DNA from: Odoribacter sp.
GTDB lineage: Bacteria; Bacteroidota; Bacteroidia; Bacteroidales; Prolixibacteraceae
Assembly: GCA_013824715.1 (NCBI GenBank)
Contig: PNOH01000008.1
Coordinates: 62,001-126,000 of the forward strand
DNA length: 64,000 nt
Direction of reading: 5' to 3'
This document shows positions 1-62,875 of this stretch, piece after piece. The position numbers and the translations under genes were made by a program. Below the pieces are notes generated by a model, which worked only from the letters and a program-made list of their open reading frames with translations, did not search any database and was not told where the DNA came from. Each line of letters begins with the position of its first letter. The first letter of the stretch is position 1.

Positions 1-1
1 C

Positions 2-742
2 GGGGGAAAAGCACTGATGGTGGCGGTTGATTGTGCTACTGGCAAGGTTTTGTGGGAAACACCCAATCCGGCCAACCTGAAAATGTCGCATTCATCTATC
101 ATGCCCTGGACATTCAAAGGAAAGAAAATGTACGTTTATAGCGCTGTTGGAGGAGTTGTTGGCGTTTCGTCCGAAGGCGCCGATGAAGGTAAAATTCTCT
201 GGCAGTCAACTGCATGGAATCATGCGGTAGTCGCGCCAGCTCCGGTTTGTTTTCCTGATGGGAGAGTATTTTTAACTGCCGGATATGGCGCCGGAAGTAT
301 GATGATTAAAGTAATTCCTTCAGGAGCAGAATATAAAGTGGAAGTTTTACAACAATACCTTCCAAAGGATGGAATGGCCTGCGAACAGCAAACCCCCGTC
401 ATTTGGGATGGAATGATGTTCGGAATTCAACCCAAAGATGCTGGTCCGCTGCGCAATCAGCTTATTTGCGTCAATCCGGCTGATGTTACTAAAGTGATCT
501 GGACTTCAGGAAAGGAAGGTCGTTTTGGCCTTGGACCTTACCTGATTGCCGATCAAAAAATGTTTCTGCTGAGCGACGACGGGACGCTGACGATGATTAA
601 ACCTGACAGTAAAAATTATGTCCAGATGGCTCAAAAAAAATTGTTTGACGGGCACGATGCCTGGGGGCCAATGGCTTTGGCCGATGGATATTTGCTGTTG
701 CGTGATTCGAAAAATTTGTTTTGTGTAAATGTTAGCCAATAA
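2..742 (+). CDS. PQQ-like beta-propeller protein, 3' part
   Basis: The frame is open to the left edge, so the N-terminus lies outside the window; 246 residues are visible. They show blade motifs of the PQQ-like/BamB-type propeller: GKVLWE near the start, GKILWQ about 50 residues on, and KVIWTSGKEG further down. Such domains are protein-interaction or cofactor scaffolds outside the cytoplasm. I see no sign of a full PQQ-dependent dehydrogenase. The stop codon lies just before the ATG of the next gene, and two more propellers of this type follow in the cluster (5173 and 13986), so a shared role in the redox cluster is likely. The exact function is unknown. Confidence 0.8.
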   Translation, partial: GGKALMVAVDCATGKVLWETPNPANLKMSHSSIMPWTFKGKKMYVYSAVGGVVGVSSEGADEGKILWQSTAWNHAVVAPAPVCFPDGRVFLTAGYGAGSMMIKVIPSGAEYKVEVLQQYLPKDGMACEQQTPVIWDGMMFGIQPKDAGPLRNQLICVNPADVTKVIWTSGKEGRFGLGPYLIADQKMFLLSDDGTLTMIKPDSKNYVQMAQKKLFDGHDAWGPMALADGYLLLRDSKNLFCVNVSQ

Positions 743-746
743 AACT

Positions 747-1712
747 ATGAACAGAAAATTGGTAAATATCGTACTGATCGTTTTGGCTGTGGCCATCGTC
801 ATTGTTATTGGTAAAGATTTTATAGGGAAAAAGGCCGGAAAAAATATCGAAAATCCATTTGAATACAATATGGATGAATTCCGGAAAGTTGATTCTACAC
901 AAATTTTGTATGCCGAAACATTTCATTTTCCGTTGAAAATTCACGACTGGGCAGGAATTACAGTATCCGATTCGTTGATAATTGTAGCCAGCGCCAATCA
1001 GTTATTAAAATTCGATTATTCAGGGAAACAGATTTTCAGTAAACAACTGATTGATACAGCAACTTGTATCACCATTGACGAAAACCGTCAGATTTGGATT
1101 GGGATGAGCCACTATGTAGTCATGTACGACATAAATGGAACCCTGGTCAAACGCTGGAATTCTTTTGGAGACCGGGCATTATTCACGTCGCTGGCAGTTT
1201 CCGGCGAAAACGTATATGTGGCCGATGCCGGAAACCGGATCGTTTATCACTGCAATACTAACGGACAAATTATCCGGAGAATAGGAGAGAAAAACGAACA
1301 GAAGGAAATTCCCGGATTCATCATCCCAAGTCCGTATTTTGATGTAGCCATTGATGATGGCGGATTTTTATGGGCTGCAAACACCGGACGGCATACCTTC
1401 GAAAATTACAATCCGGATGGTTCTTTGCGCACCTCATGGGGGGTAACCAGTTTCAAGATTGAAGGCTTTAGTGGCTGTTGTAATCCGGCTCATATCGCTA
1501 TTTTAGACGATAATTCGTTCATCACCAGCGAAAAAGGAATGCCTCGTATAAAAATATACGATCAGCACGGGCAGTTTATCGGGATTGTTGCGCCACCCGC
1601 TGCATTTGAGGGTTCATTGGCTCCTGATATTGCTGTTGACAAGCAACACCGGGTGATTGCCCTCGATTTTGAACGTCAGCAGGTACGGATTTTTGAAAGG
1701 AAGATGGAATAG
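747..1712 (+). CDS. Membrane-anchored NHL-like beta-propeller protein
   Basis: The protein has 321 residues from the ATG at 747; an ATG at 729 would add six residues overlapping the upstream gene. I prefer 747 because it places a short basic start directly before a strong hydrophobic segment (residues 5-21), which looks like a signal anchor. The rest shows repeats such as ITIDENRQIWIG, VYVADAGNRIVYHC and IAVDKQHRVIALD, typical of NHL or strictosidine-synthase-like propellers that face the periplasm. It follows the PQQ-like gene with almost no gap, so co-transcription is likely. No catalytic residues are recognisable. A sensor or scaffold role is inference. Confidence 0.75.
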   Translation: MNRKLVNIVLIVLAVAIVIVIGKDFIGKKAGKNIENPFEYNMDEFRKVDSTQILYAETFHFPLKIHDWAGITVSDSLIIVASANQLLKFDYSGKQIFSKQLIDTATCITIDENRQIWIGMSHYVVMYDINGTLVKRWNSFGDRALFTSLAVSGENVYVADAGNRIVYHCNTNGQIIRRIGEKNEQKEIPGFIIPSPYFDVAIDDGGFLWAANTGRHTFENYNPDGSLRTSWGVTSFKIEGFSGCCNPAHIAILDDNSFITSEKGMPRIKIYDQHGQFIGIVAPPAAFEGSLAPDIAVDKQHRVIALDFERQQVRIFERKME

Positions 1713-1737
1713 AAGGCCGTTGAAAACGGTTGCTGCC

Positions 1738-1790
1738 CATGACCCTGTAAGGGTTAAATATTAATAGCCCGGGGCAACGCTCCGGGTTGA
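1738..1790. repeat. GC-rich double hairpin repeat
   Basis: Directly after the NHL-like gene lie two small inverted repeats, ACCCTGTAAGGGT and CCCGGGGCAACGCTCCGGG. Elements of this look are common between genes in Bacteroidota. It may stabilise or end the upstream transcript, but no T-run follows, so I do not call it a terminator. Confidence 0.5.
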
Positions 1791-1807
1791 TGATAAAGAA
1801 TCGAAAA

Positions 1808-1857
1808 CCCGTCCGCGCGAAAATGTTGAAAATAGAGGTTCCAATATTTCGGACGGA
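1808..1857. repeat. 50-bp GTCCG inverted-repeat element, copy 1
   Basis: The element opens with CCCGTCCGCG and closes with TTTCGGACGGA, 50 bp in all, and ends 12 bp before the start of the Tat protein gene. Copies of the same layout and length occur at 5054-5103 and 8059-8107, each in front of another gene of the redox cluster. The ends are complementary (CCGTCC/GGACGG) while the centre varies. Confidence 0.6.
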
Positions 1858-1869
1858 AAGGCAAAAACT

Positions 1870-2100
1870 ATGAAAAGAACGATTAAAATGGATACAAATA
1901 AAACCAACCGGAGAGACTTTTTCAGAAAGGCGGCTCAGCTAACTTTTCTGTCGGCCATGATCGGCGGTTCTGCTTATTTACTTGCCGATAACCGGGTACA
2001 GCTTGAAGGTTGTGCCGACAATCAGTTTTGCAGAAAATGTCAGAAACTGACAAGCTGTTCCCTTGATCAGGCAAAAAAATTCAGGAAAAATGAGCGATAA
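1870..2100 (+). CDS. Small twin-arginine signal protein with Cys cluster
   Basis: The 76-residue product carries a Tat-like signal, NRRDFFRKAAQ (residues 13-23), followed by a hydrophobic stretch, then a short Cys-rich tail CADNQFCRKCQKLTSC. Four cysteines in about 16 residues could bind a metal or an Fe-S cluster, and Tat export would fit a protein folded around a cofactor. An ATG at 1888 is a possible alternative start that keeps the Tat motif. The stop overlaps the start of the downstream Tat ferredoxin by about 11 bp, so the two are probably co-translated. I do not recognise a named family. Confidence 0.7.
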   Translation: MKRTIKMDTNKTNRRDFFRKAAQLTFLSAMIGGSAYLLADNRVQLEGCADNQFCRKCQKLTSCSLDQAKKFRKNER

Positions 2101-2695
2101 AAAAGAACCAAAAAGTTTAGAGCGTCGCCGGTTTCTCCGCAGCGGAATGCAAATGGCTTTAGCTGTTTCATTAGGTGGCATTACCGGTGTTTCGCTCCTT
2201 AAATCGGCATCGAAAAATCTGGTATGGCAGCTCGATCCGTTTAAATGCGTTCAATGTGGCCGCTGTGCTACCGAGTGTGTGATGACTCCATCGGCGGTGA
2301 AATGTGTTCATGCCTTCGATTTATGCGGCTACTGCGATTTGTGTGGTGGATATTTGAAACCCGACTCCAACGCTCGCAGTACAGCCGCCGAAAACCAGCT
2401 TTGCCCAACTGCTGCCATCAAGCGAAAATATATTGAAGAACCATATTTCGAATATGTAATTGAAGAGAATTTGTGTATTGGTTGCGCTAAATGTGTGGCA
2501 GGTTGTACATCCTTTGGTAATGGTTCACTGCATTTGCAGGTTCGTCACGACCGATGTGAAAACTGCAACGATTGTGCCATTGCACGCGTTTGCCCGGCAG
2601 ATGCATTTCAACGTGTTCCGGTTGATAATCCTTATCTGATAAAGGGGGGATTCACCAAAGGCGGAAGTAGTAAGGATCAATTGAAGAAAGGATAA
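2090..2695 (+). CDS. Tat-exported polyferredoxin, NapG-like
   Basis: From the ATG at 2090 (201 residues; a start at 2063 would lie deep in the previous gene) the protein begins with a twin-arginine signal, ERRRFLRSGMQMALA. It then shows four Cys clusters: CVQCGRCATEC, CGYCDLC, CIGCAKCVAGC and CENCNDC with a later CP. This is the pattern of a NapG-type periplasmic [4Fe-4S] ferredoxin. With the membrane ferredoxin at 3700 it would form a NapGH-like quinol-linked electron path. The two genes are now separated by about 1 kb holding an ORF6N gene, which I read as a later insertion. The redox partner is not identified. Confidence 0.8.
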   Translation: MSDKKEPKSLERRRFLRSGMQMALAVSLGGITGVSLLKSASKNLVWQLDPFKCVQCGRCATECVMTPSAVKCVHAFDLCGYCDLCGGYLKPDSNARSTAAENQLCPTAAIKRKYIEEPYFEYVIEENLCIGCAKCVAGCTSFGNGSLHLQVRHDRCENCNDCAIARVCPADAFQRVPVDNPYLIKGGFTKGGSSKDQLKKG

Positions 2696-2699
2696 AGAA

Positions 2700-2726
2700 G
2701 TTGGCAGTCGCAGTCACAGTTTTCAG
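2700..2726 (+). repeat. Post-stop CAGTCGCAGT-type element
   Basis: The sequence TTGGCAGTCGCAGTCACAG begins six bases after the ferredoxin stop. Closely similar strings follow the stops of pepT (31642), sucD (45348), the GntR gene (46569) and the 46693 gene (48745). The recurring place right after a stop codon is the notable point; no function is known to me. Confidence 0.45.
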
Positions 2727-2732
2727 ATAATT

Positions 2733-2757
2733 CTAAGAACACAATTTGTGACCTTAG
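2733..2757. promoter_or_regulatory. Palindrome A of the ORF6N upstream array
   Basis: Arms CTAAGaaCACAA and TTGTGacCTTAG flank a single T, 25 nt with two mismatched positions per arm. Read in frame it gives ...NTICDLR, resembling the TICD segment encoded at the palindrome inside the ORF6N gene. Either an operator or a relic or donor of the coding segment. Confidence 0.5.
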
Positions 2758-2775
2758 AGGAAGGAGTGGAAAATT

Positions 2776-2800
2776 TTGAGGTGCAATTTTTGCACCTTAA
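2776..2800. promoter_or_regulatory. Palindrome B of the ORF6N upstream array
   Basis: Arms TTgAGGTGCAA and TTGCACCTtAA flank TTT, with one mismatch. The surrounding frame reads EWKILRCNFCTL, which aligns position for position with [12 protein letters not shown] in the gene. The palindrome begins at the same Leu codon in both. This makes it look like a copy of the gene's variable segment with a different palindrome. Confidence 0.55.
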
Positions 2801-2861
2801 ACAACGTAGAGATATTTTGATTGCGGACGGGAGAAGAATATAGCATTTCTGAATTAGAAAG

Positions 2862-2888
2862 TTTGAGGTTGCAAATTGAAACCTTAAA
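2862..2888. promoter_or_regulatory. Palindrome C of the ORF6N upstream array
   Basis: Arms TTTgAGGTTgCAA and TTGaAACCTtAAA flank one A, with two mismatches. The frame reads ELESLRLQIETL, again in the position of [12 protein letters not shown] of the gene. It is the third variant of the same palindrome-bearing segment in this interval. Confidence 0.5.
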
Positions 2889-2909
2889 TTTCAAAAGCCA
2901 GGTGTGCAA

Positions 2910-2996
2910 AAACCGCGTAGCGGTGAAAGTTTGGTAGCCAGAGCTTCGACGTGAGCTCAGCCGAACGGTGAAGTGGAACGGAACCCCTGGAAAGGA
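2910..2996. repeat. Intergenic repeat CCGCGTAGCGGTGAAAGTTTGG type
   Basis: The block holds a CCGCGTAGCGG palindrome followed by TGAAAGTTTGGT, then GAGCT...AGCTC and further GC-rich sequence. A second copy of its left end (CCGCATTAGCGGTGAAAGTTTGGT) lies at 48869-48892 in front of a lipoprotein gene, so it is a dispersed element rather than part of a gene. Confidence 0.5.
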
Positions 2997-3092
2997 GATG
3001 AAGAAGATTACCGTCCGCACAGTAAAGTTTATCGGAGAATTGTCTTTTTTGCGGACGGGAGTGAAGTAATTTAGAATACAGCAGTTTAAGAT

Positions 3093-3119
3093 GAACTCAT
3101 CACAATTTGTGATAAGTTC
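3093..3119. promoter_or_regulatory. Palindrome D of the ORF6N upstream array
   Basis: Arms GAACTcATCACAA and TTGTGATaAGTTC flank one T, with one mismatch. Its core ATCACAATTTGTGATAA (17 bp, 3099-3115) is identical to 3383-3399 inside the ORF6N gene. The frame reads DELITICDK, matching QELITICDN of the gene. It is the closest of the four upstream palindromes to the one in the gene and lies about 80 bp before its start. Confidence 0.6.
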
Positions 3120-3196
3120 AAAATAATAGTCTGGAATAAAATAGAAACATTGTAATCGGAGGCTATTAAGATGATAAATAATTAGCATTCAGTTAT

Positions 3197-3716
3197 ATGC
3201 AACTTGAAAAGATTCAAACGAAAATTTATGAAATCCGGGGGCAAAAGGTCATGCTGGATTTTGATCTTTCATCAATGTATGAAGTTGAGAATAGGGTCTT
3301 AAAACAAGCAGTAAAGCGAAATCTTGATCGTTTCCCGAACGACTTCATGTTTCAACTTACAAAAATCGAATGGCAGGAGCTTATCACAATTTGTGATAAC
3401 CTCCCAGATGGAATAAAATTCAGTCCGGCAACCCCATTCGCTTTTACAGAGCAGGGTGTTTCCATGCTTTCGAGTAAATTAAAAAGTAAAAGCTTTGCAA
3501 GTCAACATTGCCATTATGCGGGCCTTTGTTTTTATGCGACAATATGCTTTGACTCATAAAGATTTAACAGAAAAACTGCATGAGCTTGAGAATAAGTACG
3601 ACAAACAATTTAAAGATGTGTACGATGCCATTAACTTCCTGCTCCAAAAAGATATTCAGGAAACAGAACAAAAACAGCGCAAACGAATAGGTTTTATAAA
3701 TGATAAGACAACTTAA
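3197..3716 (+). pseudogene. ORF6N-domain protein, frameshifted
   Basis: The first frame (3197-3559) encodes an ORF6N domain: [34 protein letters not shown], then [19 protein letters not shown]. Near 3489-3492 the typical continuation, [19 protein letters not shown], moves to a frame shifted by one base and runs to 3716, ending RKRIGF plus six residues. The two frames join into one normal-length protein, so I call a frameshift and probable loss of function. I cannot exclude a sequencing error. ORF6N proteins are KilA-N/BRO-like DNA-binding proteins of phages and bacteria. The 3' end overlaps the next gene, as if this gene had been inserted into the redox operon. Confidence 0.75.
3381..3399. 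promoter_or_regulatory. Perfect palindrome inside the ORF6N coding region
   Basis: TTATCACAA and TTGTGATAA flank one T, 9-bp arms with no mismatch. It encodes the ELITICDN segment just before the FTEQGV motif, a position that from memory varies strongly between ORF6N proteins. The same core occurs upstream at 3099-3115. Confidence 0.6.
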
Positions 3717-4971
3717 ATACTATTTTTTACTGATTTCGGTACTACTTTACAGCTCGATTCAGACGATGGCCTCCGATGCCAAACAGCGGTTTCCGAAGCC
3801 TGAATTTGATACCGGCTATCTGCAACCCGATACCACCGCACCTTCAGCAAGATTTCTTTTGCTGGAGTATCTGGATGTGTTCGTTTTACTGGCTGTTTTG
3901 ACTGTCGTCACCTGGTTTGTTCTGAAAAAGCGTTCACGTCAGGGCGTATTCTGGACTTCGGTTTTCTCCCTGCTGTATTTTGGTTTTTACCGCGAAGGGT
4001 GCATCTGCTCCATCGGTTCTATCCAGAATGTGGTGCTTGGAATCGTAGATCCAACTTATGCCATCCCGCTTACAGCCTTGTTATTCTTCCTTCTGCCACT
4101 TATTTTTTCGCTTTTCTTCGGAAGGACTTTTTGCGCCGGAGCCTGTCCGTTGGGAGCTATTCAGGATATTGTTGCTATAAGGCCAATCGAATTGCCAAAA
4201 TGGATTCAGAAGGTACTGGGTTTGATTCCGTATTTGTACCTCGGACTGGCTGTTTTGTATGTCGCCACCAAATCCGAATTCATCATCTGCCGGTACGATC
4301 CGTTTGTCGGGTTATTCCGTTTCGAAGCGCCATTTCACATGCTGATTCTGGGAATATTATTTCTGCTGGTAGGGGTATTTGTTGCCCGGCCCTATTGCCG
4401 GTTCTTTTGTCCTTATGGTGTTTTGCTCGGCTGGATGTCGAAATTTTCATCCAACCACATGACGATTACTCCCGCCGCCTGTATCCAGTGTAAACTATGC
4501 GCTAATTCCTGTCCGTTTGGAGCTATTGATGAACCAGTTGCCGAAACCGGAAAACGCCGCAGCAATGTAAAACGTTTGATGACTTATTTTGTGATTCTGC
4601 CCTTGTGGATTGGTATTGGCGGATTTGCCGGTTCGATGATGCACGTGCCATTGTCGCGTTTTAATCAGACTGTTTATCTGGCTGAGCAAATTATCGAACA
4701 TCCTGAAGTAAAGAATGATGCTAAAAATATTGATGTCCGTACATTTATGAGCTCAGGAAAAACAACTGAACAATTAGTTATGGAGGCTGATGCCATTCGT
4801 GATCAGTTCTATATCGGAGGTTGGCTGCTTGGCGGTTTCATGGGGTTGGTAATCGGTACCAGTCTGATTAGTTTGTCAACCTTCAGAAAACGTGAAGATT
4901 GGGAACCTAATAAAACCAACTGCCTGAGCTGTGCGCGTTGCATGGATTATTGCCCGGTGAAGAAGGAATAA
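3700..4971 (+). CDS. NapH-like membrane [4Fe-4S] ferredoxin protein
   Basis: The 423-residue protein starts with a signal-like segment and has several membrane helices (about residues 50-67, 80-95, 120-140, 165-185, 210-230, 290-310, 370-395). Metal-binding motifs are CAGACPLGA and CRFFCPYG in the membrane part, then CIQCKLCANSCPFGA and, at the very end, CLSCARCMDYCP. This is the NapH/NosR-type polyferredoxin plan for passing electrons between quinol and soluble Fe-S proteins. With the Tat ferredoxin at 2090 it would form a NapGH-like pair. The C-terminal 4Fe-4S site after the last helix is longer than in classical NapH. Its start overlaps the ORF6N end by 17 bp. Confidence 0.85.
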   Translation: MIRQLKYYFLLISVLLYSSIQTMASDAKQRFPKPEFDTGYLQPDTTAPSARFLLLEYLDVFVLLAVLTVVTWFVLKKRSRQGVFWTSVFSLLYFGFYREGCICSIGSIQNVVLGIVDPTYAIPLTALLFFLLPLIFSLFFGRTFCAGACPLGAIQDIVAIRPIELPKWIQKVLGLIPYLYLGLAVLYVATKSEFIICRYDPFVGLFRFEAPFHMLILGILFLLVGVFVARPYCRFFCPYGVLLGWMSKFSSNHMTITPAACIQCKLCANSCPFGAIDEPVAETGKRRSNVKRLMTYFVILPLWIGIGGFAGSMMHVPLSRFNQTVYLAEQIIEHPEVKNDAKNIDVRTFMSSGKTTEQLVMEADAIRDQFYIGGWLLGGFMGLVIGTSLISLSTFRKREDWEPNKTNCLSCARCMDYCPVKKE

Positions 4972-5004
4972 GCGTTGCGGGATTCGGGTTTCGTGTTTGG
5001 GGTT

Positions 5005-5036
5005 TATCCTTTGCCGTTTGCTTTAGCTGACGGGTT
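5005..5036. repeat. Half REP-like hairpin (CTTTGCCG...TTTAGCTGACGG)
   Basis: The string ATCCTTTGCCG, TTTGC, TTTAGCTGACGG matches the right half of the paired hairpin elements at 7957-8038, 20823-20928 and 34964-35053. Here the left half is missing and the stem is degenerate. Confidence 0.45.
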
Positions 5037-5053
5037 ATGGAAATAAAATGAAA

Positions 5054-5103
5054 CCCGTCCACGGGAAATGATCAAAAAAGCAAAAAAACATTTCTTGGAC
5101 GGA
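5054..5103. repeat. 50-bp GTCCG inverted-repeat element, copy 2
   Basis: Same layout as the copy at 1808: CCCGTCC, then CGGGAAATG, and GGACGGA at the far end, exactly 50 bp. It precedes the second PQQ-like gene by about 70 bp. Confidence 0.6.
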
Positions 5104-5128
5104 ATAGCAATAATGTTAATTGGAAATG

Positions 5129-5170
5129 TCTAAAATCTATTGTCTATCATCAAATATCTATTTTCTGAAA
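5129..5170 (+). repeat. Heptanucleotide leader array (TCTANNN)6
   Basis: Six consecutive 7-nt units, TCTAAAA, TCTATTG, TCTATCA, TCAAATA, TCTATTT and TCTGAAA, end two bases before the ATG at 5173. They show a strict 7-nt period with a variable second half of each unit. Confidence 0.6.
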
Positions 5171-5172
5171 TA

Positions 5173-7011
5173 ATGAACATCTCAAAAAACGATAAAATTA
5201 AACTGGCCCAGCGGATTGCCTGGATATCTGCGGGATTTGCTGTAATCATGGCCTTTTTGCTTATTGCCAACTTTGTTCAGACCAATCTGAATAAACCAAT
5301 CGATAACAAGACTATTCCTGCCTTGGTTAAACGACTGAGCCAAAGTCCCGCCGATGAAGCTTTAAAAGCCGAAATCCGTGCATTCGACCTGATGGCACGT
5401 AAAGCTTATTTTACAAGTCAGTGGCAGTTGCGAACAGGTAGTTACCTCATGTTTCTTGGGGTCATTATTTCTATTTTGGCAGTCCGTTATGTGTTGTCGG
5501 CCAAATCGAAACTGAACGAGATCGACAGCATTGAAAAAATCAATGAACTCGATAAACTGGTGGCGCAAAAGTGGGTGATTTATGTTGGTTCAGGATTAAT
5601 TATTCTCGCGCTTATTTCCGGATTTTTATCATCCAATTCGCTGAAGGAATATATGGTGAATGAAAATATTGTTGTTCAGGAAGAACAATCTGCTGAAATT
5701 GCGGCTCCAGTTTTTCAGGAACAGATAACTGCACCTGCCGATTCATCAGCGCCTGCCGGAAATACCACAATTACAGATAATCCTGTATCTACTGATGTTC
5801 CGGCTACTATAGCAACTGAAACTCCTTCAGCCCCTGTTGGGTTCCCGACTCTGGCACAGTTAAAAGCCAACTATCCTTTCTTCCGTGGTGCTGAAGGTAT
5901 TGGGATTGCTGCCCAGAAAAATACACCAACCGACTGGAATGGGTCTGATGGCAAAAATGTGATCTGGAAAGTGAAAGTTCCGAAATCCGGATACAGTTCA
6001 CCAATCATCTGGGGAAATCAATTGTTTGTGACCGGCGCTGATGCGCAGGCACGGATGGTTTATTGTTACGATAAAAACTCCGGAAAATTGTTGTGGGAAG
6101 CCGCCGCCGACAACATTCAGGGTTCGCCTTCAAGCATGCCAAAAGTGACTGCCGATACCGGTCTGGCTGCGCCCACCATGGCAACCGACGGGCGTTCAGT
6201 TTTTGCCATTTTTGCAACAGGCGATGTGATTGCACTCGATATGAGCGGAAAACGATTGTGGTCGCGCAACCTGGGCGTTCCTGATAACCATTACGGGCAT
6301 GGTTCGTCGCTGATTGTTTATAAAGATAAACTGCTTATCCAGTACGATACCAACCGGTCAGGAAAGCTGATGGCTTTGGCAACACAAACAGGTTCAACTG
6401 TCTGGGAAACTGTGCGTAGTTCAAAAATATCGTGGTCGTCGCCAATTTTGGTAAATACCGGAAGTCGCATGGAGGTGATTCTGACTACCAATCCGAATGT
6501 AAATGGGTACAATCCTGATACCGGAGAGGAACTTTGGAACATTGCCTGTCTTTCAGGAGAAGTTGGCCCATCGGCCGGATATGCCGACGGAATGGTGTTT
6601 GCCGCCAACGAGTATGCCAAACTGGTCGGTATAAAAATTGACGGTGGTACTCCTGAAATTGCCTGGGAAGCCGATGAATTTTTGCCTGAAGTTTCAAGTC
6701 CTCTGGCTGTAAACGGTTTGGTCTTTATTGCTACAACCTACGGTGTTTTTGCCTGCATCGACGCCAAAACCGGAGAGAAACTCTGGCACCAGGAATATGG
6801 CGATGCTTTTTATTCTTCGCCGGTTTATGCCGACGGAAAAGTTTACATCACCGATATGTCAGGCAAAACGCATATTGTAAAAGCAACCAAAGAATATCAG
6901 TTAATCAGCACTCCCGAACTGGGTGATAAAGCCGTTTGCTCGCCTGTATTTCAGGATGGCCGGGTTTATTTGCGAGGCATGAATCAGTTGTTTTGTTTGG
7001 GAACTAAATAA
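5173..7011 (+). CDS. Membrane-anchored PQQ-like beta-propeller protein
   Basis: The ATG at 5173 is preferred over a TTG 33 bases upstream because the heptad leader ends right in front of it. The 612-residue protein has three N-terminal membrane segments (about residues 14-35, 90-105 and 140-160). A Pro/Ala/Thr-rich linker follows (roughly 175-225), then a propeller with repeats GKLLWEA, GKRLWSRN, GSTVWET, GEELWNI and GEKLWHQ. The propeller should lie outside the cytoplasm, tethered to the membrane. It neighbours the NapH-like protein and the NuoEF fusion, so a docking role in an electron-transfer complex is plausible but inferred. No catalytic PQQ-enzyme signature is evident. Confidence 0.8.
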   Translation: MNISKNDKIKLAQRIAWISAGFAVIMAFLLIANFVQTNLNKPIDNKTIPALVKRLSQSPADEALKAEIRAFDLMARKAYFTSQWQLRTGSYLMFLGVIISILAVRYVLSAKSKLNEIDSIEKINELDKLVAQKWVIYVGSGLIILALISGFLSSNSLKEYMVNENIVVQEEQSAEIAAPVFQEQITAPADSSAPAGNTTITDNPVSTDVPATIATETPSAPVGFPTLAQLKANYPFFRGAEGIGIAAQKNTPTDWNGSDGKNVIWKVKVPKSGYSSPIIWGNQLFVTGADAQARMVYCYDKNSGKLLWEAAADNIQGSPSSMPKVTADTGLAAPTMATDGRSVFAIFATGDVIALDMSGKRLWSRNLGVPDNHYGHGSSLIVYKDKLLIQYDTNRSGKLMALATQTGSTVWETVRSSKISWSSPILVNTGSRMEVILTTNPNVNGYNPDTGEELWNIACLSGEVGPSAGYADGMVFAANEYAKLVGIKIDGGTPEIAWEADEFLPEVSSPLAVNGLVFIATTYGVFACIDAKTGEKLWHQEYGDAFYSSPVYADGKVYITDMSGKTHIVKATKEYQLISTPELGDKAVCSPVFQDGRVYLRGMNQLFCLGTK

Positions 7012-7022
7012 ATTAGCATAAA

Positions 7023-7895
7023 ATGGATAAACTACGCATTTTTCAACTAAAGTCATTATTTGATGAAATAGTTCATTTTATCAATAGTGAGGATAATAGC
7101 GAACAGGTAGAAATCTGGTTTGCCCGTGAACTTCAGGAGAAATTGGGATATGCCCGATGGGAGAATTTTATGGTCGCCATTCAGCGTGCGGTTGATTCTT
7201 GTAAAACACAGAATATCAACATTGACGACCATTTTCGTGAGGTCACGAAAATGGTCGAATTGGGAAGCGGAGCAAAACGCGAAATCAGCGATTTTATGCT
7301 TACCCGCTACGCTTGTTATCTGATTGCGCAAAACGGTGATCCCAAAAAAGAAGAAATTGCATTTGCTCAAAGTTATTTTGCGGTTCAAACCCGAAAGGCC
7401 GAATTAATTGAAGAACGACTGAACCTCTTGTCACGGTTGGAGACCCGCGAGAAACTTCGCGCTGCTGAAAAACAACTTTCCCAAAACATTTACGAGCGGG
7501 GAGTGGATGATAAAGGTTTCGGTCGTATTCGTTCAAAAGGCGATACAGCCTTGTTTGGTGGATACACTACCGAAGACATGAAAAACCGTTTGGGCATCAA
7601 GTCAAACCGACCGCTTGCCGATTTTCTTCCCACGCTGACGATTGCCGCCAAAAATCTGGCAACCGAAATGACCAATCACAATGTGGATGGCAAAAACCTG
7701 CATGGAGAACAGTCTATTACCAGCGAACATGTACAAAACAACAAAAGTGTTCGCCACATGTTAGGCCAACGGGGAATTAAACCTGAAGAGTTGCCACCTG
7801 CCGAAGACATCAAAAAAGTGGAACGCGGCGTGGCAAACGACGAAAAGAAAATTGAGAAGGCAACAAAGAAATTACCGAAACAAAAAAAGAAATGA
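7023..7895 (+). CDS. dinD: DinD-family DNA-damage-inducible protein
   Basis: The 290-residue product has the DinD plan: a BRO-N-like start (VEIWFARELQEKLGYARWENF), then the VTKMVELGSGAKREISDFMLTRYACYLIAQNGDP core, AFAQSYFAVQTRKAEL, and a Lys-rich tail. E. coli DinD is SOS-induced and antagonises RecA filaments; whether this protein does so is inference. It starts 11 bp after the propeller gene and lies between it and the NuoEF gene, so it looks like a guest in the redox operon. The coding sequence contains a perfect 15-bp-arm inverted repeat (7226-7257). I saw no LexA-like box in front. Confidence 0.85.
   Translation: MDKLRIFQLKSLFDEIVHFINSEDNSEQVEIWFARELQEKLGYARWENFMVAIQRAVDSCKTQNINIDDHFREVTKMVELGSGAKREISDFMLTRYACYLIAQNGDPKKEEIAFAQSYFAVQTRKAELIEERLNLLSRLETREKLRAAEKQLSQNIYERGVDDKGFGRIRSKGDTALFGGYTTEDMKNRLGIKSNRPLADFLPTLTIAAKNLATEMTNHNVDGKNLHGEQSITSEHVQNNKSVRHMLGQRGIKPEELPPAEDIKKVERGVANDEKKIEKATKKLPKQKKK
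7226..7257. promoter_or_regulatory. Perfect 15-bp inverted repeat inside dinD
   Basis: Arms CGACCATTTTCGTGA (7226-7240) and TCACGAAAATGGTCG (7243-7257) flank GG with no mismatch. It encodes DDHFREVTKMVE in the conserved core. A perfect repeat of this length in a coding sequence is unlikely by chance and parallels the palindromes in the ORF6N and BRO genes. Confidence 0.65.
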
Positions 7896-7956
7896 TTGAT
7901 CAGGGGAAAAGATAATGCCTTAGACTTCCTGCCTGAACATGTTGGTTTTTCGGGTC

Positions 7957-8038
7957 TGTCACATGAATGTGACGGCAAAGGATATTGTTTTTATCAACAG
8001 TTCAGCTATATCCTTTGCCGTCAGCTTTAGCTGACGGA
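7957..8038. repeat. Paired REP-like hairpins
   Basis: The left hairpin GTCACATGAATGTGAC runs into GGCAAAGGATAT. After about 25 bp the mirror sequence ATATCCTTTGCCG runs into the hairpin TCAGCTTTAGCTGA. The two halves are inverted relative to each other, as in a BIME. Copies lie at 20823 and 34964. Confidence 0.6.
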
Positions 8039-8058
8039 TTAATTAAAAAGTTTAGAAA

Positions 8059-8107
8059 CCCGTCCGCGGGAAATGGTATTCAGTGTGAAAGCCTGTTTTC
8101 GGACGGA
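8059..8107. repeat. 50-bp GTCCG inverted-repeat element, copy 3
   Basis: CCCGTCCGCGGGAAATG at the left and TTTTCGGACGGA at the right, 49 bp. It lies about 80 bp before the GTG start of the NuoEF fusion and matches the copies at 1808 and 5054. Confidence 0.6.
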
Positions 8108-8186
8108 ATAGATAAAACGATAAAAGAGAAGAATACAAAACAATAAAATGCCGGATTCGTCCGATATTTCAATGTAAAAATATACC

Positions 8187-10544
8187 GTGAACGACGAAAA
8201 AAACATACAACAAGCAATTGACCTGATCATCGCTGAAAAAGGGACGGCTGCGAGGGCAGTTATCCCAATTCTTCAGGCGATACAAAATACATTCAACTAT
8301 CTTCCGGAAGAAGCCCTGAAATACGTCTGCCAAAAAACTGAAATCACCCCTGAACAGATTGTCGGGGTAGCTTCATTTTATTCGCAATTCAGGATGCAGC
8401 CCTCTGGCGAACACATAATTAAAGTTTGTGTCGGTACGGCCTGCCACGTGAAAGGCGCCAGTCAGGTTTACGATGCTCTTCGGAGGCATTTTAACCTGAC
8501 CGGAAATGAAGAAACCGATGCTTCGCGGAAATATACCATTGAAAAAGTGTCGTGTTTGGGATGTTGTACACTGGCTCCGGTGGTACAGATTGATGAAATC
8601 ACATACGGTCATGTCGGTTCAGACCAGGTTGCAAATGTGATATCAGATTTTGAAAAGCAAGCTGGAATTTCAGGAACCAGAAAAGGTTTGTTCCGGAATG
8701 TGGATGGGTCTGAAATTCAGGGAGAAATCCGCATCGGTCTGGGTTCATGCTGTGTGGCCTCCGGAAGCGAAGATGTAAAAAAAGCTGTGGAAGAAACAAT
8801 TGCCCACACGGGGATTCGAATCAGCCTGAAAAATGTGGGCTGCGTGGGTATGTGCCATCAGGTTCCGTTGGTTGAAGTTATTCCGAAAAACGAGAAGCCA
8901 ACCTTGTATGCCAAAGTAAAACCCGAAGATGTTCCAGGTATTATCGCCAGTCATTTTAAACCGCTTGGCACTTTCAGTATGCTGAAAAACAGCGTGTATA
9001 AATTCTTCGAAAGTGTACAGACCGATACGGTTTGGGATGGCGTTAAACAATATTCGATTGATGCCCGCGAAAAGCAGGTTTCCGATTTTCTGGACAGGCA
9101 AGTCCCAATTGCGACGCAACACCGCGGAATCATCAATCCGCTCGACATTGAGGAATACAAAGCCCACGAAGGTTTTATAGCCTTGAAAACCTGTTTGTTT
9201 GACCTGACTCCGGAAAAGATCATTGAAACCATTAAAGACAGCGGTTTGCGTGGACGTGGAGGGGCTGGTTTTCCTACAGGGATGAAATGGGATTTGGTGG
9301 CTTATAATCATGCGGATGTAAAATACCTGATTTGTAATGGTGATGAAGGCGATCCGGGCGCTTTTATGGACCGCATGTTGCTCGAATCGTATCCGTATCG
9401 TGTGATTGAGGGTATCGTGATTGCTGCAAAGGCGGTTGGCGTAACTCATGGATTTTTCTATATACGCGCCGAATATCCGTTGGCCGTAAAACGAATCCGG
9501 CAGGCTTTGATTTATTGCCGCGAAAATAATTATCTGGGCGAAAATATATTGGGATCCGGATTTTCATTCGACATTACCATTTATGAAGGTGCTGGCGCTT
9601 TTGTGTGTGGCGAAGAAACAGCCCTGATGCAGTCAATTGAAGGACAGCGCGGGTTCCCGCAAATCCGTCCGCCATTTCCTGCCTTAAGTGGCTTGTGGAA
9701 AAAGCCAACTTTGATCAATAATACGGAGACTTTTGCCCAGGTTTCATACATCATCCGTGAAGGTTCTGCCAAATTTTCCGAAATCGGAAGTAAAAAGAGC
9801 AAAGGAACCAAAGTTTTTGCGTTGGCCGGAAAGGTGAATCGGGGTGGACTGATTGAAGTGCCTATGGGAATTACTGTCCGGCAGATCGTTGAGGATATCG
9901 GCGGTGGTGTCCAGAACGGTAAGAAATTCAAGGCGGTGCAGATTGGCGGTCCTTCCGGCGGTTGCATCCCTGCTGAATTGTACGATACACCAATTGACTA
10001 CGAATCACTGTTAAAAGTGGGCGCGATGATGGGTTCTGGCGGACTGGTTGTTTTGGATGAAACGGATTGCATGGTGGACATTGCCCATTTTTTTCTATCG
10101 TTTACCCAGAACGAATCGTGTGGAAAATGTACCTTTTGCCGCATCGGTACCAAACGGATGCTCGATATCCTGACCAAAATTACAACCGGAAAAGGTACGA
10201 TGAAAGATTTGGATGAACTGGAATACCTGGCAGGCTGGACCAAAAAAGGAAGTTTGTGTGGCTTGGGAAAATCGGCGCCAAACCCGATTTTGTCCACTTT
10301 AAAATATTTTCATGAGGAATATATTGCCCACATCAATGGCAAATGCCCCTCAGGAAAATGCCAGAGCCTGATCAAATATCAGATTAATGATTTGTGCATA
10401 GGCTGCACTTTATGTGCCCAGAAATGCCCGACCGACGCTATCCTTTTCAAACCGCATGAAAAACACGAAGTCATCACCGATCTTTGCATCAAGTGCGATG
10501 CCTGCCGGCAGGTTTGCCCGGTTGATGCGGTAGAGGTGGTGTGA
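8187..10544 (+). CDS. NuoE-NuoF fusion, NAD(P)H-oxidising flavoprotein
   Basis: The 785-residue protein starts at a GTG; no in-frame ATG lies upstream. Residues 1-160 are a NuoE-type thioredoxin-fold [2Fe-2S] domain (C81, C86, C123, C127). Residues 180-255 are a second thioredoxin-like ferredoxin (C188/189, C219, C223). Residues 330-690 are NuoF, with GRGGAGFPTG (356-365) for FMN/NADH and ESCGKCTFCRIG for [4Fe-4S]. The end is a 2x[4Fe-4S] ferredoxin (CIGCTLCAQKCP, CIKCDACRQVCP). HydB/HndC of bifurcating enzymes share much of this plan. It should pass electrons between NAD(P)H and Fe-S partners. No hydrogenase or formate dehydrogenase subunit is visible nearby. The fusion of the E and F parts in one chain is notable. 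Confidence 0.88.
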   Translation: MNDEKNIQQAIDLIIAEKGTAARAVIPILQAIQNTFNYLPEEALKYVCQKTEITPEQIVGVASFYSQFRMQPSGEHIIKVCVGTACHVKGASQVYDALRRHFNLTGNEETDASRKYTIEKVSCLGCCTLAPVVQIDEITYGHVGSDQVANVISDFEKQAGISGTRKGLFRNVDGSEIQGEIRIGLGSCCVASGSEDVKKAVEETIAHTGIRISLKNVGCVGMCHQVPLVEVIPKNEKPTLYAKVKPEDVPGIIASHFKPLGTFSMLKNSVYKFFESVQTDTVWDGVKQYSIDAREKQVSDFLDRQVPIATQHRGIINPLDIEEYKAHEGFIALKTCLFDLTPEKIIETIKDSGLRGRGGAGFPTGMKWDLVAYNHADVKYLICNGDEGDPGAFMDRMLLESYPYRVIEGIVIAAKAVGVTHGFFYIRAEYPLAVKRIRQALIYCRENNYLGENILGSGFSFDITIYEGAGAFVCGEETALMQSIEGQRGFPQIRPPFPALSGLWKKPTLINNTETFAQVSYIIREGSAKFSEIGSKKSKGTKVFALAGKVNRGGLIEVPMGITVRQIVEDIGGGVQNGKKFKAVQIGGPSGGCIPAELYDTPIDYESLLKVGAMMGSGGLVVLDETDCMVDIAHFFLSFTQNESCGKCTFCRIGTKRMLDILTKITTGKGTMKDLDELEYLAGWTKKGSLCGLGKSAPNPILSTLKYFHEEYIAHINGKCPSGKCQSLIKYQINDLCIGCTLCAQKCPTDAILFKPHEKHEVITDLCIKCDACRQVCPVDAVEVV

Positions 10545-33071: not shown

Positions 33072-33905
33072 TTACTTTATTTCTTTTTTCTTTAAGGATG
33101 GAGGTAAAAAATTCTCGCCAGTTACAACACTTTTTCCAGTTTTAGATTCTAGCTCCAATCGTGCATTTTTGGCCACTGCTCCGCCTTTTTTACCGGCAAT
33201 TGCGTTTTTCTGTAATCCTTTGGCTAACTCGCTTTCAGCAATTTGTCGGGTCGAAAGCTCAGCCAGAGCAGTAAAAATCAATTCGGCTTCTGACATGTGG
33301 TCGCGTAAATTCTGAGTTTCCAAACCCTTCAAATCTTTGTGTTTCCTGACGGTCAAGCCAGTCCATTCCTGATGAATCACATTGGTTAAAAATGCGAATT
33401 CATCATGTTTCTGTATTCCGGCATCCTTCCAGTAATCAGTCAATTTGTTGCGGGTTTCCTGACCGGTCATGCGCTGTTGTATCCACTTTTCGCTACGACC
33501 CAACTTTTGCCAGTTTTCGCGTGCACGGTCCAACCCTTGTGCCGGATCAGCTATTTCCTGCATACGTTCATAACCGACTTTGGCCAGCCATTGTTTAAAA
33601 GGTTCTGCTTTGGGCGAAGGGATAGATTGGATAATACGTAGTAGATTTTCTGTGTCTGCAACATCTGTTTCCCTCATTTTGCCATCTTCAGCTTTCATTT
33701 TCAACTGTCCCAATTTCTGGGACAGTTCACTTCCTTCGGATTCTAATTTTGTTTTAAGAGCATTCCAATACTTTCTTGGCCTTGGGCTATCTGTTAATAT
33801 TTCAACAACATCAATCACCGAAAAATACCACTGTTCTTCAGTTTCATCCCAATGGGTTCTTACTTTTTTGCTCTCAAAGAGTTTGATGGAGGTTTCGTTA
33901 TTCAT
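33072..33905 (-). CDS. BRO-family (phage antirepressor-like) protein
   Basis: The 277-residue product has a BRO-N domain at the start (IKLFESKKVRTHWDETEEQW, YFSVIDVVEILTDSPRPRKYW). A conserved central part follows (LLRIIQSIPSPKAEPFKQWLAKVGYERMQEI) and a C-terminal region ending LESKTGKSVVTGENFLPP. Such genes are common in phages and as single genes in Bacteroidota, where their role is unclear; BRO-N binds DNA. It stands alone between tilS and hemF without phage neighbours. The segment ELSQKLGQL is encoded by a perfect palindrome (33703-33727), as in the ORF6N and dinD genes. Confidence 0.82.
   Translation of the reverse strand: MNNETSIKLFESKKVRTHWDETEEQWYFSVIDVVEILTDSPRPRKYWNALKTKLESEGSELSQKLGQLKMKAEDGKMRETDVADTENLLRIIQSIPSPKAEPFKQWLAKVGYERMQEIADPAQGLDRARENWQKLGRSEKWIQQRMTGQETRNKLTDYWKDAGIQKHDEFAFLTNVIHQEWTGLTVRKHKDLKGLETQNLRDHMSEAELIFTALAELSTRQIAESELAKGLQKNAIAGKKGGAVAKNARLELESKTGKSVVTGENFLPPSLKKKEIK
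33703..33727. promoter_or_regulatory. Perfect palindrome inside the BRO-family gene
   Basis: AACTGTCCCA (33703-33712) and TGGGACAGTT (33718-33727) flank five bases with no mismatch. On the coding strand it spells the ELSQKLGQL segment just before the conserved K-M-x-A-x-D-G-K motif, a place that from memory varies between family members. Confidence 0.6.
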
Positions 33906-40276: not shown

Positions 40277-40310
40277 AGCGCCTGTTATAAAATAACAGGC
40301 GCTAAAAAAA
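40277..40310 (-). terminator. Rho-independent terminator of the NigD-like gene
   Basis: AGCGCCTGTTAT and ATAACAGGCGCT form a 12-bp perfect stem with a 3-nt loop. On the minus strand it is followed by TTTTTCATTTTTTT. It lies about 30 bp after the stop at 40333. Confidence 0.85.
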
Positions 40311-62840: not shown

Positions 62841-62875
62841 TAAGCGCTAAGCGGTTCAAAACCGCTCAGCGCTTA
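62841..62875. terminator. Strong hairpin between convergent genes
   Basis: TAAGCGCTaAGCGGTT and AACCGCTcAGCGCTTA form a 15-bp stem with a short loop. On the plus strand TTTTATGCTTTT follows. It separates the antitoxin from the E1 gene and may serve both directions. Confidence 0.65.

Follow-up and report, generated by a model that had tools for sequence, protein, structure and literature searches.

A palindrome within ORF6N genes as the probable target of the encoded protein: covariation of recognition helix and site at an Odoribacter locus and across the family

The 64-kb stretch of Odoribacter sp. contig PNOH01000008.1 analyzed here (hereafter the window, part of a genome of 4.6 Mb) contains an ORF6N gene that carries a palindrome inside its own coding sequence and is preceded by four others. 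Why should the gene for a DNA-binding domain hold such an element among its codons, and what reads it? The original prediction, made from the window alone, was that the protein may bind the palindrome encoded by its own variable segment, and that the upstream palindromes may be relics or donors of alternative segments, a store of cassettes for changing its specificity. Comparison across the family suggests that the protein very probably does bind the palindrome in its own gene, although the determinant of specificity lies elsewhere than in that segment.

A palindrome inside the ORF6N domain

The elements of the locus are as follows.

3197..3559, plus strand: ORF6N gene, first frame (120 aa), with the remainder in another frame at 3495-3716
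3290..3319, plus strand: codons of the recognition helix of the helix-turn-helix (HTH), placed by covariation; helix 41-50 in the model of paralogue L001
3376..3404, no strand: in-gene palindrome, 13/14 arm pairs, predicted target of its own protein, with ATCACAATTTGTGAT at 3383-3397
3092..3120, no strand: upstream copy of the same class as the in-gene palindrome, 13/14 arm pairs
2775..2801, no strand: upstream palindrome of class GGTGCAA, 11/13 arm pairs
2733..2757, no strand: upstream palindrome of another class, 10/12 pairs by eye, one half GTCACAA and the second half decayed
2863..2887, no strand: upstream palindrome GGTTGCAA/GGTTTCAA, 10/12 pairs by eye

The gene matches ORF6N (PF10543) with an E-value of 2.5e-29 and 101.8 bits against a curated cut-off of 27.8. 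It is frameshifted near 3485-3500, and the shift may stem from mutation or from an assembly error. All five palindromes were located where the original prediction had placed them, the strongest being those at 3092-3120, 3376-3404 and 2775-2801. The exact 17-bp core that it had reported at 3099 and 3383 is likewise present, within a 23-bp match between 3093-3115 and 3377-3399 (91% identity), and CACAATTTGTGA occurs at 2740, 3101 and 3385. Palindromes scoring at least 11 number five in the window, against 0 or 1 per Markov-shuffled window (eight shuffles); two of the five are at the ORF6N locus and one is inside dinD. Two further strong palindromes of the window lie at 40277-40303 and 62842-62874, with scores of 12 and 12.5.

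The search for ORF6N genes gave 6 hits in the same genome, and hits in 32 of 60 genomes from the family and in 117 of 395 from the phylum; part of all these were fetched as stretches. The set was extended by 80 genome contigs, 37 viral contigs and 6 plasmid loci. Profile hits that scored below 80 bits or began late in the profile were removed, as were the duplicate loci L036-L038. The remaining 301 genes were thinned until any two shared less than 80% nucleotide identity in their first 55 codons, which left 255. Palindromes were scored over 10 arm pairs as the best within an 80-nt stretch. By this measure a palindrome of about 25 bp pairs at 8/10 or better in 245 of the 255 genes, at 9/10 or better in 192 and at 10/10 in 88, while ten genes pair at fewer than 8/10. 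In 205 of these 245 genes it is centred on nucleotide 168 or 166 of the domain, while insertions or tandem copies shift it in the others; the best palindrome stands about 11 codons past the FMFQL motif.

This arrangement is kept at the level of DNA. The anchor motif is present in 168 of 178 genes, and 127 of these 168 reach at least 9/10, against a mean of 1.9 under synonymous recoding (never above 4 over 40 runs); in a control stretch taken from these genes none did so. With 12-bp arms, at least 10/12 pairs are found in 161 of 170 ORF6N domains against 4.6 expected (neither the 168-gene nor the 170-domain set was thinned for redundancy). Palindromy at this site is thus retained while the sequence changes, as the original prediction had anticipated. 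The longest other open reading frame (ORF) of 183 loci reaches the same threshold in 7 cases against 4.9 expected, and this near agreement rules out neutral palindromes of a kind found in any gene. Three of these 183 neighbouring ORFs (L001-L188) hold a 12/12 palindrome, where 0.0 were expected, and are perhaps further genes of the superfamily.

Palindromes are able to fold as RNA, and a hairpin in the mRNA is one candidate explanation. In the 245 genes preselected at 8/10 or better, from which both pairing fractions and mismatch counts were computed, arm positions 2-12 show Watson-Crick pairing at fractions of 0.86-0.99 and position 1 at 0.71. However, the mismatched pairs (G-T 54, A-C 61, other 144) show no wobble bias, which argues for DNA rather than RNA as the constrained molecule, and positions 1-9000 of the window gave no Rfam match up to E 1. 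RNA structure was ruled out on these two results and is extremely improbable. Nor is the encoded peptide what is kept, since the site is read in two main frames, with the centre at 168 in 164 genes and at 166 in 41.

The element is widely distributed. Palindromes of 8-10/10 occur in records titled Spirochaetia, Omnitrophota, Desulfobulbaceae, Sulfurimonas, Melainabacteria and Pirellulaceae, several such non-Bacteroidota records being metagenome-assembled and possibly misassigned, and on plasmids of Treponema, Sulfuricurvum, Haliovirga, Butyrivibrio and Legionella.

A code between the recognition helix and the site

If the palindrome is a target, what reads it? Arm bases were compared with the first 50 residues of the domain, using 243 of the 245 genes (two have short translations), of which 212 have like halves at positions 6-4. 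The inner arm bases track residues of the recognition helix encoded about 30 codons upstream of the palindrome. For the core (positions 6-4) residues 28 and 25 supply nearly all of the information and residues 29, 24 and 27 contribute less; residue 28 accounts for 0.875 of 1.00 nats of mutual information at position 4. In the 212 genes, Q28 goes with TCA in 128 of 128 and E28 (n=52) with TCG in 49, ACG in 2 and TCA in 1; K28 pairs with TTC (14/17), R28 with TGC (8/11), L28 with TTT (2/2) and N28 with TCG (2/2). Position 7 follows residue 24, lysine specifying G (120/122) and arginine A (49/58), and residue 32 explains 0.098 of 0.10 nats at position 3. Residues 24, 28 and 32 are spaced i, i+4 and i+8, so as to form one face of a helix, in an order that runs from outer to inner bases. 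The relation also holds without selection for symmetry (254 of 255 genes), where the right half reads TCA in 131 of 133 Q28 genes, TCG in 56 of 64 with E28, TTC in 14 of 17 with K28 and TGC in 30 of 35 with R28; the left half of R28 genes is mixed (TGC 10/35).

An AlphaFold model of paralogue L001 (mean pLDDT, the predicted local distance difference test, 81.1) places the HTH helices at 30-37 and 41-50, in a block of pLDDT 95. Residues 24, 25, 28 and 32 fall in the second of these helices (numbering is domain position + 18), and the stretch encoded by the palindrome (about residues 71-79) comprises a loop and the tail of a later helix. No sequence relative of ORF6N was found among solved structures, and Foldseek returned nothing at E <= 0.001; the best match was a Ski-like protein (E 0.27), with Mbp1 at rank 27 (E 3.9). 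In the window gene the reading residues are R24 (3293-3295), V25 (3296-3298), Q28 (3305-3307) and R32 (3317-3319). This combination predicts ATCACAA, which is carried by the in-gene palindrome and by the copy at 3092-3120.

Could the helix instead covary with the peptide that the palindrome encodes, through contacts within the protein, palindromy being incidental? Residue 28 does correlate with the encoded amino acids as well. However, synonymous codons also track it. In the main frame, genes with serine at the site use TCA in 88 of 88 cases with Q28 and TCG in 35 of 35 with E28, and cysteine, which takes this place in the other frame, is encoded by TGT in 28 of 28 with Q28 and by TGC in 9 of 10 with E28. 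One DNA code therefore holds in two reading frames that give unrelated peptides. Synonymous codons and the two frames together rule out a peptide-level explanation as the whole account, and its chance of being correct is negligible.

Shared ancestry alone was ruled out by nearest-relative and tree tests. In leave-one-out prediction of arm class the helix was right for 205 of 212 genes and the nearest relative (outside the helix) for 115; in the 94 genes where the two conflict, the helix was right in 90 and the relative in none. At position 7, 62 conflicts were decided for the helix in 56 cases and for the relative in 6. A code trained on L001-L188 was applied to 95 new genes, 88 of which have like halves; 83 could be predicted, the other five having helix pairs unseen in training, and 80 of the 83 later loci were right (majority class 70). 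Success was 19/19 on viral contigs (majority 13) and 17/18 in non-Bacteroidota records (majority 14), unseen helix pairs accounting for two more viral contigs and for no further non-Bacteroidota record. A FastTree tree from which helix and palindrome had been left out requires at least 33 E/Q changes (32 for the site), mostly on unsupported branches. Ten supported independent E/Q pairs show the site changing in the same direction in 10.0 on average and in the opposite direction never, and a serine-codon version of the test gave 8/8. For residue 24, 13.4 of 16 pairs agree in direction, about 0 oppose and 2.5 show no difference; for K/R28 the corresponding values are 10.2 of 13, about 0 and 2.8.

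It is shown by computation that the palindrome is constrained as DNA, where it lies and that a code links helix and site, and by covariation the site is specific for the reading helix of its own protein. Since the code extends to a synonymous serine codon, the ORF6N protein very probably binds its own gene, and we place high confidence in this physical binding. The binding half of the original prediction is thus supported, by code, codons and tree; its other half, that the encoded segment sets the specificity, gives way to the helix about 30 codons upstream.

Copies outside the gene

What, then, are the upstream palindromes? The centre of the 3092-3120 copy is 91 bp 5' of the start codon, and the copy is a predicted promoter-proximal operator. 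When the genome was searched for ATCACAANTTGTGAT with up to one mismatch, exactly two places were found, 3376-3404 and 3092-3120, with 0 in the control. The other three upstream palindromes differ in class from the in-gene one. A sigma-70 scan of 2690-3800 was uninformative (five promoter-like sites against 3.0 in shuffles).

Across the family, a copy of the gene's own type (at least 17/25) lies within 250 bp upstream at 35 of 244 loci, compared with 4 of 238 and 3 of 232 farther up, and within 250 bp downstream at 10 of 239 against 3 of 230 in the control. Where any family palindrome is found upstream (68 loci, at least 18/25, some surely by chance), likeness to the gene's own palindrome is 17.26 against 15.96 when permuted (0/5000). 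At the 37 loci with an upstream copy, the class fits the gene's own helix at position 7 (0.74 vs 0.55, p 0.0015). The idea that upstream sites are in general operators of the adjacent gene was supported in part only; a subset of the outside copies are likely to be such operators, and others not.

The same ORF6N locus was found in two congeners, L077 and L071. The L077 gene has R24 I25 Q28 and sites matching that helix, and it retains the promoter-proximal site. The L071 gene has K24 Y25 R28 and the in-gene palindrome GGTGCAATTTTAGCACC; its promoter-proximal site remains of the ATCACAA type, partly decayed. L071 thus resembles a switch made in nature, in which the in-gene site changed in concert with the helix while the upstream site trailed behind. 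The sites at 2733 and 2775 are recognisable, partly decayed, across all three species, and a block of about 2805-3086, which holds the 2863-2887 palindrome, is missing in L077 and present in L071.

These comparisons bear on the proposed cassette store, in which upstream palindromes would donate segments that change the specificity of the gene. Upstream palindromes of other classes do exist, and one of them matches another allele as foreseen, the GGTGCAA class of 2775-2801 being the in-gene class of the L071 orthologue. The upstream copies also translate, loosely, to variants of the gene's segment; ORF6N genes generally carry such palindromes at that place, however, and any palindrome of the family would read so. 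Specificity follows the helix codons rather than the palindrome-encoded peptide, and these codons are absent from the upstream palindromes. As a palindrome without them cannot donate specificity, the cassette store is most unlikely, and the upstream copies more plausibly represent additional operators or remnants of earlier alleles.

At some loci copies are more numerous. Tandem copies occur in frame at L003 and L096, and three in-frame palindromes stand in tandem in the single ORF6N gene of L003 (1572-1670, LRFQIGTL..LRTQNVTL..LRFQIGTSS). Arrays of about 33-36 bp period and mixed classes are present at L168, L064, L096 and L157; that of L168 has four palindromes of different classes at 34-bp spacing, from -195 to -93 of the ORF6N domain and after an ORF6N stub.

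Rickettsia palindromic elements (RPE) and the repetitive extragenic palindromic (REP) sequences associated with RAYT are palindromes in or near genes, sometimes in frame, in which a single sequence has many dispersed copies. A mobile element of this type, or a palindrome that corrects itself by template-switch repair, would need no function, and the tandem copies and arrays agree with such an origin, as do outer arms that are palindromic beyond what the helix explains. However, it would not link inner arm bases to helix residues, and AGGTNNCAANTTGNNACCT, searched with up to one mismatch, occurs in its own genome at two ORF6N loci only. Unlike RPE and REP, the three patterns searched in the Odoribacter genome were found only at ORF6N and dinD loci, and their bases follow a protein helix. 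The helix-site code rules out this origin as a full account, and it is extremely improbable.

Related families and candidate functions

Is the arrangement confined to ORF6N? Two further genes of the window suggest otherwise.

7023..7895, plus strand: dinD gene, Bro-N family (NF008573), with an in-gene palindrome
7226..7257, no strand: dinD in-gene palindrome, 32 bp, 15/16 pairs, core TTTCGTGANNTCACGAAA
33703..33727, in a minus-strand gene: palindrome in a Bro-N gene (domain 33579-33866), 10/12 pairs

The dinD palindrome sits at a seemingly equivalent place of the Bro-N gene. In a Bacteroidota sample of dinD, all 17 readable genes have at least 9/12 at the site (no gene could be read at 12 of 30 loci, and the row L337 is unlike DinD). 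The SOS gene dinD of Escherichia coli K-12, of unclear role, has 10/12 at the corresponding site, with the in-gene palindrome GACCATTTCGAGGAGATCCTCGATATGGT. By eye and without statistics, similar dinD helices accompany similar sites: EYRHF with CGAGGA (E. coli and L316), EWRNF with GTTGA and RWENF with CGTGA. DinD gave weak hits only among solved structures (best E 0.18). At least 10/12 pairs are found in 25 of 27 Bro-N genes (1.4 expected; the set includes dinD genes) and in 16 of 19 KilA-N genes (1.0 expected), with near-duplicates kept in both sets and 3 of 30 Bro-N and 7 of 26 KilA-N loci too short to read. The KilA-N loci L375-L400, among them L386, L395 and L400 of the Odoribacter genome, carry palindromes such as TTTAAACCCCTCGAATTCGAGGGGTTTAA.

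What might binding achieve? In the mechanism we favour, a symmetric, putatively dimeric ORF6N protein would insert its recognition helix into both half-sites, residue 24 reading arm position 7, residues 25 and 28 positions 4-5 and residue 32 position 3. The bound protein would then block transcription through its own gene as a roadblock, and a second copy before the start codon may help at some loci, that of the window included. Autoregulation is a moderately likely function of the in-gene palindrome, and the most likely of those considered. There are precedents for its parts. The operator O2 of lac lies inside lacZ. LacI is described as affecting its own transcription through a roadblock at operator O3 (PMC3711431). 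The present proposal shares with lac a repressor roadblock on its own transcription and operators inside genes; LacI and lac are single cases, whereas the ORF6N site is family-wide and lies within the codons of the DNA-binding domain itself.

Several results weigh against a protein that reads and acts through its own site. The genes that vary in support of the residue-32 link are few (entropy 0.10). In the outer arms (positions 8-12), which differ between genes and remain palindromic, the tie to the helix is weak: the best column for position 8 is 24 (0.25 of 0.94 nats), and for positions 9-12 it is column 50 (0.18-0.30 of 0.76-0.98 nats), which adjoins the palindrome. R28 genes are often asymmetric and make up 6 or 7 of the 10 genes below 8/10. 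Leave-one-out prediction misses 7 of 212 genes (e.g., L208 and L221; L141 is a register slip of the ungapped numbering). Outside the gene, a scan found an upstream copy at 37 of 243 loci, so that most show none, and over 244 loci the gene's own palindrome barely outranks others upstream (mean rank 0.532). The class test fails at positions 6-4 of the upstream copies (0.41 vs 0.34, p 0.16), and downstream copies (15 loci) fit at neither position 7 nor 6-4 (p 0.41, 0.40). For dinD, a genome-wide search for TTTCGTGANNTCACGAAA that allowed one mismatch gave no other occurrence; with no second site there, control would rest on the in-gene site alone.

A different use of the same binding is a tag for self-immunity, in which the protein would act against foreign replicating DNA or other elements and the in-gene palindrome would mark or silence it on the DNA that carries its gene. 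BstA of prophage BTP1 combines a KilA-N-like domain with aba, a DNA-based self-immunity element that is homologue-specific and overlaps the beginning of the BstA gene (PMC8585504). Protein and short element together resemble the ORF6N arrangement, and the ORF6N element is likewise DNA-based (no wobble bias) and homologue-specific (cognate code). However, aba is described as 63 bp across the gene start (29 bp upstream and the first 34 bp), with direct repeats of CCCGCC at its ends; the main text of that paper does not use the word "palindrome", and direct BstA-aba binding was left open there by its authors (PMC8585504). The ORF6N palindrome, by contrast, is centred about 168 bp into the domain rather than at the gene start and has a recognition code. 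Sites confined to their own gene, as for ORF6N and dinD, are as compatible with a tag as with an operator, and less so with a regulon.

ORF6N and DinD proteins also match the PADLOC models PDC-S05 and PDC-S13, where PDC denotes a phage-defence candidate; the models are silent on a DNA target or an in-gene site. On a plasmid of Treponema saccharophilum (L306), ORF6N stands in a row with genes for a DNA methyltransferase, a winged-helix regulator and a restriction subunit S, and may from this row belong to type I restriction islands. We know of no shown defence activity of ORF6N, and no search was made for one. A self-immunity tag is the leading alternative, less probable than autoregulation. 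PHROGs labels ORF6N proteins as anti-repressors.

Helix and site lie about 100 bp apart and so would be inherited, exchanged and moved as one unit, and with so short a module a mobile gene could carry its target along to any new location. We tentatively suggest that the ORF6N, Bro-N/DinD and KilA-N superfamily is self-addressed, in that nearly every gene would hold, among the codons for the DNA-binding domain, a palindrome read by its own protein, helix and address switching together in evolution, as a portable tag of each mobile gene for autoregulation and for discrimination between self and rival DNA, in a generalised version of BstA/aba. These domains are spread over bacteria, phages and viruses. 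If each gene does hold its own target, the specificity of many uncharacterised regulators, recognition code included, could be read from the genes, in a rare case of one DNA stretch constrained both as code and as target of the encoded protein; the E. coli K-12 dinD palindrome makes the idea directly testable. Searches of the open-access literature, at the level of listings and abstract openings, turned up no description of palindromes within genes of the ORF6N, Bro-N or KilA-N families, and almost nothing on the DNA targets of the bacterial proteins. Internal operators and self-immunity elements are known singly; a family-wide, self-recognised, in-domain site with a readable code was not found in the same literature.

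One further repeat accompanies the locus. A 48-bp inverted repeat, CCGTCCGC...GCGGACGG, has two exact matches in the genome, 3011-3058 of the window and G000:C9:114821-114868. Motifs resembling it by eye are near 1806-1858 and 5046-5096 of the window, and a similar sequence also lies 5' of the orthologous ORF6N gene in L071.

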